From Desulfurococcales archaeon (GTDB lineage Archaea; Thermoproteota; Thermoprotei_A; Sulfolobales; Fervidicoccaceae), in contig JALWDA010000062.1 in assembly GCA_027014955.1 (NCBI GenBank), positions 1-44,317 of the forward strand: a stretch of DNA of 44,317 nucleotides. The letters run 5' to 3'. This document shows, one piece after another, positions 6,398 to 13,609 of the stretch (positions are counted from its first letter, which is position 1; every line of letters begins with the position of its first letter). The position numbers were made by a program, and so were the translations under genes. Below the pieces are notes generated by a model. The model had not been told where the DNA came from. It did not search any database and was given only the letters and a program-made list of their open reading frames with translations.

Positions 6398-6961
6398 CTA
6401 TAGCATTCTCCACCTGGACTCCTTGGAGCTGTAGTAAAGAAGCCCCCTCCTGTATAGCTCGTTAAACAGCTTGCCTGCTCTCCCGAAAAGCTCCACGCAT
6501 GCAACGGGGTCCCGCTCCTCCACTGTCTCGAGCTTCTCCCGGAACTCCCTGTAAACACTCGGGTGTACGATAAGTGTATCGCCCTCCACCTCCAACACTA
6601 CTCCCCCCATCTGCTCAAGCCTCTTAAGGACACGTCCAAGCTCGTCAGGGTTTCCCCTGCTCAGGTCCTTGACCAACGATACGTAGCCCTTAGCATTGAG
6701 CGCGTCCAAGGCTTTCTGAAACAGGCTCGGGGGCCTACCCCGCTCCTCCTTCTCCTCCGCCCTCCTCTGCCTCCCACTTGCGTGTCTTCTCCTCAACTCC
6801 TGTAATTCTTCCTCCAGCTTCTCAACCCTCTCTTCCAACCTGGCCACCCTCTCAACTAGCTCGGCCAGGACCTCCCCAGGAACCAGAGCCAGCCTGCTGC
6901 TTTCCTCCTCTTCTCCCCCTTTCTCATTCTTTCCAAGGAACTCGTCAAGAGTGGGAGCCAA
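6398..6961 (-). CDS. Conserved hypothetical coiled-coil protein
   Basis: The family is unknown to me. The 187 residues comprise a short acidic N-terminus, a strong heptad coiled coil (about 28-65, LAELVERVARLEERVEKLEE), a basic linker rich in Arg and Glu, and a folded C-terminal half (about 80-187) of mixed helices and strands. It starts 5 nt after the stop of the GNAT-ABC fusion gene, so it is the last gene of the same minus-strand operon. The coiled coil suggests oligomerisation or a scaffold role beside the ABC ATPase, which is inference. Confidence 0.65.
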   Translation of the reverse strand: MAPTLDEFLGKNEKGGEEEESSRLALVPGEVLAELVERVARLEERVEKLEEELQELRRRHASGRQRRAEEKEERGRPPSLFQKALDALNAKGYVSLVKDLSRGNPDELGRVLKRLEQMGGVVLEVEGDTLIVHPSVYREFREKLETVEERDPVACVELFGRAGKLFNELYRRGLLYYSSKESRWRML

Positions 6962-6965
6962 AACG

Positions 6966-8954
6966 TTATACCTCCTGGCCCCTGTAGGGCACCTTGACAG
7001 CCTTCCCGTAACCCGTGTATATGATGCTGTCGGGCTCCAGGGCCTGCAGAATCTCTCTCCTATGGGTACTCGCCACGAGAGTTATCCCCAGTTTTCTTAC
7101 GAGTATGCCAAGTTTACGAGCCACCCGCATGGCAGTAAGGGGGTCCAGATGGGCAAGGAACTCGTCGATAAGGAGAAGGTTAGGCCTCTCCGCGAGTATA
7201 CTGGCCAGCTTGGCCCTCTCTTTCTGGCCTGTTGACAACTGGTCAAACCGGGCCCTGTACATAACTGCGTCGCTGAGCCCCACGGCGTTCAGTAGCTCAA
7301 GCGAAGAGTAGACATCACCGAGCTTCTCCAGCATGTGTTCAAGGAGCGTCTCGTTCCCGAACATCGGTTCAGCCTCTCCCGGTATGAGGGCTGAGGCCTT
7401 CGTGTTTGGGGGAAGGCTTATCCTCCCCTTATCGGGCTTTGCATCAACCGCGCCCGTCGAACCATATATGAGCCTGAGCAGGGTTGTCTTGCCAGCACCG
7501 CTTATGCCCACCAGCACCACGACCTCACGGGGCCCTATCTCGAAGCTGGCGTCCTCAAGCACCATCTTTGTTATAGTCCTCTTCTCAACGCCGAATGCCC
7601 TAAGCACCTCCTGGACTAGGGTGGGAAGCCCCTCCAGGTCAAGCGTGCTCTCATAGTGCTTGGTGAGGCCCTCAACTCTAATCGGGCCTTCAAGGGGCTC
7701 TATCTCCGGGAGATGGGGCCGGTAGAGCCTCCCACCGTGGAGCCGGGCGTGGGGGTCGTTTTCTAGGAAGAACCTTATCTTCTCCTCCGCCTCCCCGTCA
7801 AGGGAGTAGAAGAGCACGGGCCTCCCGCTGGCCGTGTCCCATAGGTATTTGAAGCCGACCTTCTCGAAGAAGGGGTTGAAGCGGGCCATCTGGGCTATTG
7901 TTTCAACCACTTTTTTCTTCCGCTTCATCTCCGGCACACGCGCGTCCCTTATCCACTCAAGGGCCGCCTTGACGCTGAGAACTCCCAGACCGTCGCCCCT
8001 GTAGTCGGGGTGCACTACTACCCGGGCTATCCTGGCTGCTAGGTTGTCAACGCGGGATAGCAGTGCCCTGTAGTTCTCCTCACCCACGAGAGCCCTAGCA
8101 ATGCTCCTAGAGTGGTAGCGTTTGAGTATCTCTCGGTACTTACGGAAAAGCTGTATTTTCTGCTCCTTCTCTATGGGCCAGAAGGTGGGGTGGAACCAAT
8201 CCGTACCGAACACCTTCTCCCTTATCATGGGCTCTATCTCAACCTTCCCGTCGACCTCGACCCGCCTACTCATGAGGGGTATGGGGGTATCCACTCGGAC
8301 ATAGGCCACATACCTAGGCTCATAATCCTTCCGGGTGACGAGCTCTAATACCATAAATCTGCTGCTCGGCAGGCTTCCCCTTATCTCCTGGAGGACCATT
8401 GGAGTTCCATCGTTTGGGCACTGGGGCCTGGTGTTAGCCTCCTCATAATGTCCGCAGACAGGGCATTTCCATATCCCCACCTTCTCCTCCTTACTAGCAT
8501 AGTGGTACTGTTCTAGTGTGAGGATGTTCTCATAGTCCTCCTGGGTGACGGCCTCACGGGCGACAACTGTGTACTCATAACTTGCTCTACCCGACCAGCT
8601 CTTCCTGGTCATTGAGTACCTTTTGGACCAGGAGGGCCATACCCTGACCCTCGACTCCGCCTCCCTGCCACCAACCATACGGTCTAGGGTATATGAGTCT
8701 CGGGGAAAGAAAAGGGTCCTAGAATCGACCTCGACTGGGGTTGTGCTAGGCGTTATGAGCACGGTCTCGCCCGGAACAAGCCATCGCGCGATATTTCCGG
8801 GCATGTCCAAGAGTATCCTCTTACCCCCCTTGTCCACCTGTAGGAGCCCCCTCCACCTGTACCCCGTGGGGTATTCCCTGACCCCGGATACTCTTGCCGT
8901 AAAGGGTATTCCCGGGACTATCTTTGGCAACGCGTTCCTCCTCCCTCCAGACAC
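6966..8954 (-). CDS. ABC-type ATPase fused to zinc ribbon and GNAT acetyltransferase-like domain (COG2401-like)
   Basis: A soluble 662-residue fusion without membrane segments. An N-terminal beta-rich domain (1-155) is followed by a zinc-ribbon-like stretch (C164, C167, C179, with Asp182 in the fourth place), a GNAT-like domain whose acetyl-CoA loop reads VVVHPDYRGDGLG (312-324), and a complete ABC ATPase (about 420-662) with Walker A GISGAGKTT, signature LSTGQKERA, Walker B LLLIDEF and the switch His in STHR. This order matches the archaeal group described as ABC ATPase fused to a predicted acetyltransferase. GTG start. It follows the CitG-like gene by 24 nt. It is not a transporter; its substrate is unknown, with RNA, protein or nucleotide modification all possible. 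Confidence 0.8.
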   Translation of the reverse strand: MSGGRRNALPKIVPGIPFTARVSGVREYPTGYRWRGLLQVDKGGKRILLDMPGNIARWLVPGETVLITPSTTPVEVDSRTLFFPRDSYTLDRMVGGREAESRVRVWPSWSKRYSMTRKSWSGRASYEYTVVAREAVTQEDYENILTLEQYHYASKEEKVGIWKCPVCGHYEEANTRPQCPNDGTPMVLQEIRGSLPSSRFMVLELVTRKDYEPRYVAYVRVDTPIPLMSRRVEVDGKVEIEPMIREKVFGTDWFHPTFWPIEKEQKIQLFRKYREILKRYHSRSIARALVGEENYRALLSRVDNLAARIARVVVHPDYRGDGLGVLSVKAALEWIRDARVPEMKRKKKVVETIAQMARFNPFFEKVGFKYLWDTASGRPVLFYSLDGEAEEKIRFFLENDPHARLHGGRLYRPHLPEIEPLEGPIRVEGLTKHYESTLDLEGLPTLVQEVLRAFGVEKRTITKMVLEDASFEIGPREVVVLVGISGAGKTTLLRLIYGSTGAVDAKPDKGRISLPPNTKASALIPGEAEPMFGNETLLEHMLEKLGDVYSSLELLNAVGLSDAVMYRARFDQLSTGQKERAKLASILAERPNLLLIDEFLAHLDPLTAMRVARKLGILVRKLGITLVASTHRREILQALEPDSIIYTGYGKAVKVPYRGQEV

Positions 8955-8978: not shown

Positions 8979-9842
8979 TTATTCTAGACCAGCCCTGTCA
9001 TATAACATTGTTTCACCAACGCACGACCACCTGTAGTAAAACAGGCTCATAGTAACAATGTCGGCAACCGAGCCCAGAGACCCCCCTACAGCCTCCAAGC
9101 GTCCCTCCGAGCACGCCCTAATATCCTCCAACATTCGCTCCAACCCCCTCCTCCTAAAGCTCAGGTAATCACTCCCCAGCCTAGCACAAGCCCTCCTGTA
9201 GAGCCAGTCAACATCCCCACTCCCCGGTACACGACACCCGATTCTATGCCTGAGCACGGTGGCCAGCCCCCTGGACACCCTCCACCCTTCCCTGACCTCG
9301 CCCAAAACAGGGTCAAATGCCGTGACGATGCGACTTGCATCCCACAGGCTATAACGGGTTTCACCGGGAAAGGGCTCCCACAGGTCTGGGAAAGCCCAGC
9401 ATCTCATTCTACCCGAGTAACGGGGAAACACCCTTCTAAGCCCGCGTAGGAAGGAATCCATGGAAAACGACATAGCCTCTCTCAAGGCAATCTCCGAGAG
9501 CCTAGCTGGTCCTATATCCTCGTCGGAGCTGGTGCGAGACAGGGGTGCTACATGGAGGGACAACATGAGCATGGAGCCCAAAGAGAGGTTCGTCCTATAC
9601 ACGTGCATCATGTGGTCGACCAGGGTCTCGAACAAATCATTTGAGACGCACCCGGGATGCTTGCAGGAGAGCATCGTGATAAATGCTATCTCGTGGGCCA
9701 GTGACACGTAGTCGGGCAACCGCTTGTCAGCATGGTCCCTGAGGCGACTGACCGTGCCTGCACCCCTCCAGGAAAGGGGCTCTAGGGCGACCGCCCAGGC
9801 CGCTGAATGCACAGCCCTAAGGAAGGGCCATGATAACCTCAT
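8979..9842 (-). CDS. CitG-like protein (triphosphoribosyl-dephospho-CoA synthase family)
   Basis: A 287-residue, mostly helical protein. The region AGTVSRLRDHADKRLPDYVS (about 28-47) resembles the family segment KPGNVxRxRDxxD, and NLSLGSMLMLSLHVAPLS (about 85-102) resembles NTNLGxxLLLAPLA. Bacterial CitG/MdcB makes 2'-(5''-triphosphoribosyl)-3'-dephospho-CoA, the precursor of the citrate and malonate lyase prosthetic group. The usual KPG is replaced here by GAG, so the archaeal substrate may differ. The start ATG overlaps the DUF447 stop (ATGA), a sign of translational coupling. Confidence 0.65.
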   Translation of the reverse strand: MRLSWPFLRAVHSAAWAVALEPLSWRGAGTVSRLRDHADKRLPDYVSLAHEIAFITMLSCKHPGCVSNDLFETLVDHMMHVYRTNLSLGSMLMLSLHVAPLSRTSSDEDIGPARLSEIALREAMSFSMDSFLRGLRRVFPRYSGRMRCWAFPDLWEPFPGETRYSLWDASRIVTAFDPVLGEVREGWRVSRGLATVLRHRIGCRVPGSGDVDWLYRRACARLGSDYLSFRRRGLERMLEDIRACSEGRLEAVGGSLGSVADIVTMSLFYYRWSCVGETMLYDRAGLE

Positions 9843-10525
9843 ATGTCTAGCTTCTCCTCTAATGACCTACACCTCCTCAGAGCCTTCCTCACGTGGTCCA
9901 AAACCTCCTCTTTCAGGCCCCCGAACATGGCGTTGTTAGCATGCCTTTTCAGGAAATCCAAGGAGTGCTTAATCTGACATGAAAGTCCCTCCTCCCAAGA
10001 AGGGTTCCCGCAGGCGATGTCAATTCTAGACAGAGCCACAAGGAGCTCGATGAGCAAGGAGGTTACCCGTGAGAGTGGTGACACCATGGACGGCCTGACA
10101 AGGGCCTGGAAAGGCCTTAGGTTTAGAACCAGGTATCCCTCTTTCCTCTCATAATCACGAACCCTAACTTGTAGCACCATATAGGAGCCTTCGACAACGA
10201 GAAAACCACTAATCCATAATGTCCTCGCCCTTCCCTTGAATATCCTCCATAAAATAACCGGGTCGGCCACCGCGTTGAGGAAAAGCTCAGACCCCTCGCC
10301 TTTCTCTAACAAGTATCCGTAGAGAGCCCTGCCTTCATAGACCCGAGCACGTAAGACCCCCCCCTCTAGGGGATAAACTCCCAGAAAGCCCCCCGGGGCC
10401 CCCCAGTCAGGCACAGCTACGATGGTCTCCAAAGGAGAGTCCCTGAAGACCCTCCATAGCGTAGTAGAATCCGGGTCAATGTGCACCCATTCATCGTTAA
10501 GGCGTTGAACACTCATGAAGTTCAC
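9839..10525 (-). CDS. DUF447 family protein (flavin-binding-fold, COG2457-like)
   Basis: A 228-residue protein. The segment GGFLGVYPLEGGVLRARVYEG followed by LYGYL and FLNAVADPVILWRIF matches the DUF447 plan, a split-barrel fold related to flavin reductases, in which an FMN-binding strand is followed by a short helix and an N-x-x-x-DP turn. The C-terminal half is helical. GTG 10525 overlaps the previous stop (GTGA); ATG 10516 is the alternative. It lies between a nucleotidyltransferase-like gene and a CitG-like gene with 4-nt overlaps on both sides. Reaction unknown. Confidence 0.6.
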   Translation of the reverse strand: MNFMSVQRLNDEWVHIDPDSTTLWRVFRDSPLETIVAVPDWGAPGGFLGVYPLEGGVLRARVYEGRALYGYLLEKGEGSELFLNAVADPVILWRIFKGRARTLWISGFLVVEGSYMVLQVRVRDYERKEGYLVLNLRPFQALVRPSMVSPLSRVTSLLIELLVALSRIDIACGNPSWEEGLSCQIKHSLDFLKRHANNAMFGGLKEEVLDHVRKALRRCRSLEEKLDI

Positions 10526-11451
10526 CCGGCCAAGGCCACTCCATGGCTCTTATCAGTAAGTGTCAGCTGAAGCCTTGGCTCACCAACGTAGCCCGCCCGT
10601 ACAATCTCTAGTCTTCCCCACGCCTTTATCCTATCCCCGGGGAAAAGCAGCTCACAGAACCTGCCCCGTGGGCTGGTTAGGGAAAGCCTCCCCCCGGGTA
10701 CACCATCAACGCTGAGCTCGTAGGTGCAGGGGAACACATGTCCCCTGGAATTGTCCACAACCGTCCCCTCTAGGACTCGCTCGCCCAGATAGTAAACCGT
10801 GTCTCTACAAATGGAGTACTCCTCAGGCAAGAGGGGGACCAGCCTTATGTATACATCCAAACCCCTCCACATGCCCTGTAGGACCTTGGAGCTCTCCCTA
10901 TGGTGGAGAACCCCCTGCAACGACCACCCTCCCCTCTGGTCTATTAGCCTCCTACTAGCATTCCCCATGTAGGGTTCAAGCAGAGGGTTCTCCTTAAGAT
11001 GGTGGTAAAACTCGTCAACACGCGGGCCATAAACAACCAGGTCTATGTCACCTCTCCCCGGCTTACCCGAGGACGCCCACCTGTAAAGCCTCGAGCCCGT
11101 GACCCCAATAGTGTCAACACCCGTTGTACTTGTAAGGATTTTAACAAGACCACAGGCAACATCGTCATCTGATGAAGCGCAATACTCCAGGGGGTTGGCA
11201 AAAGCCTGAATCTCATCTATACGCAGGAGGGGCACATCCCTTCCATAGCACATCGAATACATAACAACATCCCCAGAGAATCTTCTTGCCACACTCACCA
11301 GATCTGCTGGCTCCTTAACCACAACATCCAACGCGGGATAGCGTGGCATCGCAAGCAACCTTCCCCGGGGATGGGACAATCCCCTGACCATCCAAAACAC
11401 CCCTTCGAATGCCACTAGGCATCCCTCAACGAAACAAGCCATGCTGCACAC
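10522..11451 (-). CDS. Predicted nucleotidyltransferase (COG1665-like)
   Basis: First gene of the operon, up to 309 residues. The nucleotidyltransferase signature is clear: GVTGSRLYRW, then a short loop and GDIDLVVYG (about 118-143), the G-S plus D-x-D pattern of DNA-polymerase-beta-fold enzymes. The C-terminal third is beta-rich (SLTSPRGRFCELLFPGDRIKAWG), perhaps an OB-like domain. The best ribosome binding site (aggaggg) favours ATG 11442 over GTG 11451. In bacteria a nucleotidyltransferase (CitX/MdcG) transfers the CitG product to its acyl carrier; adjacency to a CitG-like gene here suggests an analogous pair, which is inference. Confidence 0.65.
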   Translation of the reverse strand: MCSMACFVEGCLVAFEGVFWMVRGLSHPRGRLLAMPRYPALDVVVKEPADLVSVARRFSGDVVMYSMCYGRDVPLLRIDEIQAFANPLEYCASSDDDVACGLVKILTSTTGVDTIGVTGSRLYRWASSGKPGRGDIDLVVYGPRVDEFYHHLKENPLLEPYMGNASRRLIDQRGGWSLQGVLHHRESSKVLQGMWRGLDVYIRLVPLLPEEYSICRDTVYYLGERVLEGTVVDNSRGHVFPCTYELSVDGVPGGRLSLTSPRGRFCELLFPGDRIKAWGRLEIVRAGYVGEPRLQLTLTDKSHGVALAG

Positions 11452-11488: not shown

Positions 11489-12772
11489 ATGGACTCTACC
11501 GTCCTGCCTTCTGGGGAACCTGGTGCTGATACCATGGATGAGAACAGAGGTTCTACGCCTCACGGGCCATCGCCTATGAGGGCATCCAAGTTTCTCATGT
11601 ACGCTGCTCTTATTATAGGAGTCTACATGGGTGTTAAGATATCTGTCATAGCACCATACCTTAAGGGCCTCGGCTACACTGCTTCTCAGTACGGCCTGTT
11701 CGCGGCAATATCGGTCTCCACATCTACAGTGTTCACCCTAGTCTCGGGCTACATGTCAGACAGGATTGGAAGCAGGTCCACCCTAGTCCTCGGGGGCCTG
11801 ATGGCCTCCCTGGCACCTCCCCTATACTACCTGGGAGGCAGCGTGCATCTGGCCGCCGCATTCGCAGTCGATGGTGCAGCGGGTGGCCTAATTTGGACCT
11901 CGCAGAACGTCTTGGTATCTAGGAGCGTCAGGGAAGAGCGGCTCCACATAGTGTATGGGGACCTCATGGCGCTTAGCCTCGTAGGCCATGTGCTGGGAAG
12001 TGCCCTTGGCTGGGCCCCAGTCATGTACTCTAGGGCACTCGACGTGCCCATATTAGAGGCCTACAGGGCAGCGCTTTTGTCCCTAACACTGCTACCCCTC
12101 ATAGGCATTCCCTTGGTTTTGAAGGTACCCGAGCGTAGGCCCGAGCATGGGGCAAGGAAGCCCAGTCTAAGCATACTCAGGGAGAAACCATGGCTAGCAG
12201 GATTCCTCATATACAACGCGGTGATAGGCCTGGGGGCCGCCATGTCTGTCCATAATATAGACTACTATTTTGCCCTCAAGTACCACTCCACGAGCGGCGG
12301 CCTGGGGACAATGTTTGCGGTGCAGAGCATAATAATGGCCATAGCCGCCACACGTCTCCCTCGGGCATCAGACAAGCTGGGGCTCATAGGAACATTCCTA
12401 GCCTTCACTAGCCCCAGTATACCACTGCTCATACTCATGACACTGACTGACAATTACCTCCTAGCCGCGGCACTATACATCATAAGAGCTGTCCTTATGA
12501 ATGCGGGCTACCCCCTTCTAGACGCATTCATTATGAAGAGGGTACCGGTGGGGGAAAGGGGTATGGCGAGCGCCCTGCTTAACCTAGCTTGGAACGTCCC
12601 AGCCAGTGCAGGCCGGGCAATTGGCGGGTGGCTTATGGATATTAACGTGGAGCTTCCCCTGAGGATAACAGCGGTGCTATACACAGTGGCCCTGGCGGGG
12701 CTCTACTACATGTCAAGGTCAAGGGGATGGCTGGGAGAGGGAAGGGCTCTTAATGGCTCCCAGGCTTCTTAG
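11489..12772 (+). CDS. MFS family permease
   Basis: A 427-residue integral membrane protein with about 12 hydrophobic segments in two halves. Between segments 2 and 3 lies GYMSDRIGSRSTLVLGG, the classical G-x-x-x-D-R-x-G-R-R-like loop of the major facilitator superfamily, and a charged central loop (about 215-235) separates the halves. The substrate cannot be read from sequence. It is divergent from the nucleotidyltransferase operon with under 40 nt between starts. The first 30 residues are hydrophilic, so ATG 11534 or 11576 could also be used. The next gene follows after 30 nt. Confidence 0.85.
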   Translation: MDSTVLPSGEPGADTMDENRGSTPHGPSPMRASKFLMYAALIIGVYMGVKISVIAPYLKGLGYTASQYGLFAAISVSTSTVFTLVSGYMSDRIGSRSTLVLGGLMASLAPPLYYLGGSVHLAAAFAVDGAAGGLIWTSQNVLVSRSVREERLHIVYGDLMALSLVGHVLGSALGWAPVMYSRALDVPILEAYRAALLSLTLLPLIGIPLVLKVPERRPEHGARKPSLSILREKPWLAGFLIYNAVIGLGAAMSVHNIDYYFALKYHSTSGGLGTMFAVQSIIMAIAATRLPRASDKLGLIGTFLAFTSPSIPLLILMTLTDNYLLAAALYIIRAVLMNAGYPLLDAFIMKRVPVGERGMASALLNLAWNVPASAGRAIGGWLMDINVELPLRITAVLYTVALAGLYYMSRSRGWLGEGRALNGSQAS

Positions 12773-12802: not shown

Positions 12803-13609
12803 ATGGGTTTAAGCATTGTCTCAATAGTTTACAGTACAGGTGACCCCGCCGGTGCTGGTATGGCGAGAGAGCTGATGAGGATGGGTACACCCAGCCTCGA
12901 GGGCGTATCGCTAAGAGGCTTCCCTGAGAGCGTCCTGGAGTTCGAGTTCCTAGACGAACGGGCCCCTGGGGAACAATATATAGTGCTATCCAAGCATCGT
13001 AGCAGTTCAGGCCAGCCTTCGCTCACGGTACACCACACGGGCAACCCGACGCGGAGGGCCGAGGCAGGGGGAGATCCACTGACCCTATCCATAGCACACG
13101 CGCGTCTCGCGGGCCATATTCTGAGGCTGATAAAACGCGAAGTGGAGGAGCATGGAGGCCTGGGCGAAATAGACGTCACCTACGAGGCAACCCACCACGG
13201 GCCGACCGGAGTGACAAGACCCCTTGTCTTCGTAGAGATTGGAAGCACGCATAAGCAATGGGAGGACCCTGTTCTCCACAGGCTCATGGCTAGGGTGATT
13301 CACGAGGCAGTGGAGGACCTTATAAGCGGGAGTCTTCCTACCTGCACTACAGCGGCGGGTTTCGGGGGAAGCCATTACCCCGAGAGATTCACACGTATGG
13401 CCATTGAGAATAAGGCTTGTTTCGGGCATATTATACCCAAGTACGCCATAAGGGAGGGTATAGACGAGAACGTTGTCAGGCAGGCTATTCTAAAGAACAG
13501 CGAGCCGGTAAAGAAGGTGTTCATGGAGAAGAAGGCAGGCCCCGCCCCTGCTAGGAGGGTCATAGAGAAGACTTCCCTTGACTTGGGTGTGGAGCTAGTG
13601 AAGATATAA
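12803..13609 (+). CDS. dtdA: D-aminoacyl-tRNA deacylase (archaeal/plant GEK1 type)
   Basis: It hydrolyses D-amino acids mischarged on tRNA, protecting translation. The 268 residues match family length, with the N-terminal strand IVSIVYSTGDPAG, the central TYEATHHGPTGVTRP, FVEIGSTHKQWEDP, and the zinc-site-like CTTAAGFGGSHYPERFTRM and FGHIIPKYAI. The histidines of HHGPT, STHKQW and GSHYPERFT are present. ATG 12803 follows a GGGGGTG ribosome binding site. It is probably cotranscribed with the MFS gene. Confidence 0.94.
   Translation: MGLSIVSIVYSTGDPAGAGMARELMRMGTPSLEGVSLRGFPESVLEFEFLDERAPGEQYIVLSKHRSSSGQPSLTVHHTGNPTRRAEAGGDPLTLSIAHARLAGHILRLIKREVEEHGGLGEIDVTYEATHHGPTGVTRPLVFVEIGSTHKQWEDPVLHRLMARVIHEAVEDLISGSLPTCTTAAGFGGSHYPERFTRMAIENKACFGHIIPKYAIREGIDENVVRQAILKNSEPVKKVFMEKKAGPAPARRVIEKTSLDLGVELVKI

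Follow-up and report, generated by a model that had tools for sequence, protein, structure and literature searches.

Three overlapping genes occupy positions 8979-11451 of the window, i.e. the whole 44,317-nucleotide stretch that was analysed. It forms contig 62 of a genome that is 71% complete, its congener being 61% complete. A sequence-only reading had described here three genes of a crenarchaeon joined by 4-nt overlaps, GTGA and ATGA. All of the open reading frames and both overlaps are present on the minus strand, and the taxonomic label is correct in the broad sense, the nearest named record being a Desulfurococcales MAG. The features are as follows.

10522-11451, minus strand: nucleotidyltransferase-fold protein (NT), first gene of the operon, 309 aa, GTG start
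11041-11106, minus strand: predicted active-site motif of NT, G116-VTGS...GDID137 (GS, D-x-D), from homologue conservation
10522-10525, minus strand: GTGA stop/start overlap between the NT and DUF447 genes, 4 nt
9839-10525, minus strand: DUF447-family protein, flavin-like split-barrel family fold, 228 aa, GTG start
9839-9842, minus strand: ATGA stop/start overlap between the DUF447 and CitG genes, 4 nt
8979-9842, minus strand: CitG-family protein of a predicted divergent subfamily, 287 aa, ATG start

The lengths and overlaps of all three genes are identical in the congener (G064, locus L054), and dN/dS between the two genomes (NG86) is 0.26 for CitG (0.095/0.368), 0.20 for DUF447 (0.108/0.529) and 0.15 for NT (0.074/0.509). 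These are therefore real, constrained genes, and all three are under purifying selection. The congener was the only match in a scan of genome contigs. The trio arrangement is kept across the window's family, the sample of which includes one relative with a complete chromosome (1,319,206 bases); in G048 the CitG-DUF447 portion is retained and NT is placed on a separate contig. In the window CitG is separated by the gene of a 662-aa GNAT + ABC-ATPase protein (6966-8954) from a small coiled-coil-like gene (6398-6961), relatives of which are found directly 3' of CitG in most other family members. A D-aminoacyl-tRNA deacylase gene (12803-13609) adjoins NT in most of the family, and in the window's genus an MFS transporter gene (11489-12772) separates the two.

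Single-sequence scans of Pfam and NCBIfam gave no match for the CitG and NT proteins, a single-sequence PHROGs scan of the trio gave little or no match, and the middle protein reached a sub-threshold Pfam hit to DUF447_C (PF20766, E 0.009). Profiles for CitG and DUF447 built from eight aligned members of the window's family are far more informative. Compared by hhalign, the profile of the CitG proteins aligns with PF01874 (CitG) at a probability of 99.85 (E 1e-30 over 260 columns); it also matches PDB 3h9p, a putative CitG (E 0.003), and the DUF447 profile matches DUF447 (PF04289/PF20766) in profile-profile comparison with a probability of 99.0 (E 2e-18); both family calls of the sequence-only reading are thus backed by homology. 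The CitG relatives from G029, G019 and G057 exceed the Pfam cut-off unaided. DUF447 structures 2iml, 2ptf (MTH_863) and 2nr4 belong to the same family as the window's middle gene, although this protein falls below the Pfam cut-offs, which miss the DUF447 of the window's own family. We know of no function for the DUF447 family.

When the conserved CitG pattern (E, KPG, N..G, D, D...R..G, G..AD) was checked in the window protein, E21, G29, N85, G89, D177, D225, R230, G233, G257 and D261 were found to be kept, whereas the K and P of the otherwise invariant KPG motif are replaced, as is one further Asp. Since this lysine and proline are lost, the donor or activity of the window protein may differ, and to judge from its residues it appears to be a member of a divergent CitG subfamily. 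Four cysteines (C203, C219, C244 and C274) are invariant in the CitG of the window's family and not in other CitG proteins; they may bind a metal or form disulfides. AlphaFold models made from shallow two-sequence input had a mean pLDDT of 36 (CitG) and 31.

The nucleotidyltransferase call likewise holds: the GS and D-x-D motifs are present, with G119, D135 and D137 invariant in 22 homologues. NTP_transf_2 (PF01909) is matched at E<=0.1 by 12 of these 22, the window NT itself having no Pfam match, and in the Pfam comparison no CitX/MdcG match was obtained for NT, its relatives giving NTP_transf_2/Polbeta-type matches only. Two or three NT paralogues stand side by side with CitG in many genomes (L158, L162, L163, L178-L183, L190-L193).

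Adjacency, taken as a separation within 3 kb, was surveyed in 220 Thermoproteota genomes. NT and CitG are adjacent in 37 of the 102 genomes holding both and in 14/29 families, as against 0.23 families expected by chance; CitG and DUF447 in 22/78 genomes (5/18 families), DUF447 and MptG in 33/81 (11/19), and NT and DUF447 in 7/79 (4/17), where the chance expectation is ~0.1-0.2 families per pair. The proposed pairing of CitG with NT and its link to DUF447 are therefore conserved across families, and because gene orders and strands vary between families these links do not derive from one inherited block. Direct adjacency of NT-MptG and of CitG-MptG shows no enrichment at 3 kb in the 220 genomes; the MptG connection goes via DUF447 and larger clusters. 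DUF58/DUF447 proteins have been suggested as forming the cannulae of Pyrodictium (PMC13140500). Such a role was rejected for the trio's DUF447 family because many families across the phylum have DUF447 genes beside MptG.

The larger clusters bring these genes together with the pathway for tetrahydromethanopterin (H4MPT), the archaeal replacement for folate. Loci L060, L062, L064 and L173 contain MptA, MptE, MptD, MptG (beta-RFAP synthase), a DHPS-like protein (TIGR00284), a flavoprotein with a 4Fe-4S motif, DUF1464 and DUF447, the partner being CitG in the first three and NT in L173; neighbours were named by Pfam/NCBIfam or similarity, and the members vary per locus within the stretch read. 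The order is NT-DUF447-DUF1464-MptD-flavoprotein/Fer4-DHPSlike-MptG-MptE-MptA in L173 (genome G002) and CitG-MptE-MptG-MptA-MptD-DUF447 in L060 and L064, and in L158 (G178) NTb-NTa-CitG-DUF447 stands beside MptA-MptE-MptD. The butyrate-kinase-like DUF1464 recurs in H4MPT clusters (L173 10095-11270, L060 13796-14956, L062 6304-7500, L064 10294-11460 and L167 10519-11625). In the window's own family the H4MPT pathway genes are scattered, the trio being located away from both MptG and the DHPS-like gene; the latter is on contig 18 of the window genome. Six relatives in the family have MptG, and neither the window genome (71% complete) nor its congener (61%) yielded it. The annotated neighbourhoods contain no citrate or malonate lyase context.

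The phyletic profile agrees with the clusters in tying CitG, DUF447 and sometimes NT to this pathway. With MptG (RFAP synthase) or Mch taken as the H4MPT marker, 116 of the 220 genomes are marker-bearing and 104 are not; CitG and NT are each present in 104/116 of the former and 3/104 of the latter, the three exceptions being the incomplete window genome, G065 and G263. The Fisher p of ~1e-44 ignores relatedness and is to be taken merely as a strong association. The trio very likely helps to make a one-carbon cofactor of the H4MPT type. In 21 genomes NT and CitG occur with neither MptG nor DUF447 detected, although divergence could hide both of the latter, as it does for the DUF447 of the window's family; Mch is present in 19/21 and the DHPS-like gene in 3/21. 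These genomes could speak for a nucleotide-like cofactor or protein-bound prosthetic group apart from H4MPT, on which CitG and NT would act as in citrate lyase, but this is very improbable given the Mch in 19 of them and the near absence of the pair outside marker-bearing genomes (3/104). Protein modification in the citrate lyase style was likewise rated low because the pair follows the H4MPT markers.

For the H4MPT-type assignment, the simplest reading of the 19 Mch-bearing genomes is that they depend on H4MPT, have lost the first part of its synthesis or replaced it, perhaps take up a precursor, and continue to require CitG and NT. Since they keep CitG and NT without MptG or DUF447, CitG and NT probably act late in the pathway; DUF447, lost together with MptG, would act early, on the aryl-riboside core. 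An ECF S-component adjoins CitG or NT in 10 of the 21 genomes and is a candidate transporter of an H4MPT precursor. It also occurs in two genomes with the full set of NT, CitG, DUF447 and MptG, beside DHPSlike-flavoprotein-MptG-DUF447 in G176 and beside NT in G216. The S-component is PF07155-like (L162, L169, L170, L171, L178, L179, L181, L184, L186 and L187; also L168 and L196), and several of these loci have a winged-helix regulator too, which in L171 and L184 is fused with a PfkB kinase. A point against the reading is that four genomes of the order (G005, G007, G016 and G027) have CitG and MptG with no NT detected.

Methanogens and many other archaea rely on H4MPT as their principal C1 carrier, and methanopterin bears an alpha-ribofuranosyl 5-phosphate on ribitol, joined through a phosphodiester to 2-hydroxyglutarate. 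To our knowledge no enzymes have been assigned to this ribosyl-phosphate-hydroxyacid tail, and the named pathway genes found or known include none for the phosphoribosyl and phosphodiester steps. CitG transfers triphosphoribosyl from ATP to a sugar hydroxyl in alpha linkage, so that an alpha-ribofuranosyl linkage is common to its product and methanopterin, and CitX/MdcG forms a phosphodiester on an acyl carrier protein with release of pyrophosphate. The two types of activity therefore match the two H4MPT steps that are without a known enzyme. The citrate lyase and malonate decarboxylase systems (CitG/MdcB + CitX/MdcG) share with the trio the CitG family, an NT-fold partner beside it and the proposed reaction types, whereas the trio differs in having no lyase context, no CitX/MdcG match in NT and no KPG lysine in CitG. 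This analogy, already drawn in the sequence-only reading, is the best mechanistic idea found; in the open-access literature no paper was found tying the CitG, DUF447 or NT family to methanopterin.

By analogy, the CitG homologue would attach a 5-phosphoribosyl or a 5-triphosphoribosyl unit, donated by ATP (or PRPP), to the hydroxyl at the end of the ribitol. NT would next release pyrophosphate and join this ribose 5-phosphate through a phosphodiester to the terminal acid, which in methanopterin is 2-hydroxyglutarate; the chances of this CitG/NT chemistry being correct are about even. A reductive role for DUF447, whose flavin-type fold might serve to open the ribofuranose to ribitol, is somewhat doubtful. 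Within the same H4MPT-type pathway other chemistry is conceivable, in which CitG uses PRPP to add 5-phosphoribosyl, NT activates the product or the acid with NMP, and closure of the phosphodiester falls to a second NT paralogue or to a different enzyme. The two or three NT paralogues of many genomes, often in tandem, and the missing KPG lysine of the window CitG would suit such a scheme, but it requires an extra enzyme, characterised CitG uses ATP, and the triphosphate product needs no further activation; it is accordingly judged unlikely.

Bacterial clusters bear on the proposed order, CitG and then NT. On plasmids of Azospirillum and Thiodictyon the C1 clusters have the order mptG-mtdB-ATP-grasp-mch-RimK-CitG-fae, with DUF447 on the same replicons. 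Such dephospho-H4MPT clusters (mptG, mtdB, mch, CitG, fae) share CitG with the trio, but no NT relative was detected by tblastn: one archaeal NT used as query gave matches solely on Streptomyces plasmids and none in the CitG-bearing genera. The Streptomyces homologues (H71-H90) have 28-30% identity over ~92% of the query, and phosphotransferase genes are annotated beside them; these homologues and the NT paralogues count against the proposed role of NT. Bacteria making dephospho-H4MPT would need CitG and not NT, and a bacterial CitG without NT fits because Methylobacterium (M. extorquens) is reported to use dephospho-H4MPT (PMC6193120).

Other lineages fit less well. In Natrinema the CitG and DUF447 genes overlap by 4 nt, yet haloarchaea are reported as H4F users (PMC8305020), which counts against an H4MPT-only reading. 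It favours instead a pterin/arylamine step shared by several modified folates (sulfopterin, glycosylated tails, perhaps haloarchaeal folates), the tail here not being that of methanopterin; the occurrence of sulfopterin as the C1 cofactor of Sulfolobus (PMC3697235) and the sequence divergence of the window's family point the same way. However, bacterial H4MPT clusters contain CitG, whose occurrence in archaea tracks that of Mch/MptG, and a shared modified-folate step is quite improbable. The best explanation overall, put at somewhat better than even, is an H4MPT operon in which DUF447 would act early and CitG and then NT late, by the chemistry given above.

Of the earlier interpretation, the CitG/NT pairing, the DUF447 link and the CitG/CitX analogy stand, whereas the separate novel cofactor or protein modification gives way to an H4MPT-type cofactor, as the neighbourhoods, phyletic profile and bacterial clusters indicate. 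New here are the assignment of CitG and NT to late steps, the modules that may serve salvage, and the apparent divergent CitG subfamily. The data name candidates for both of the H4MPT tail steps and suggest their order. Tentatively, and at rather less than an even chance, CitG and NT may be the missing late enzymes of methanopterin, the first adding triphosphoribosyl to the ribitol at the expense of ATP and the second then making the phosphodiester with 2-hydroxyglutarate; several archaeal lineages that have lost the early steps would need just this pair to finish a cofactor precursor imported via a dedicated ECF transporter. An exchange of H4MPT precursors between archaea is possible. The archaeal and H4MPT-linked bacterial CitG proteins now labelled "triphosphoribosyl-dephospho-CoA synthase" are suggested to have no connection with citrate lyase.
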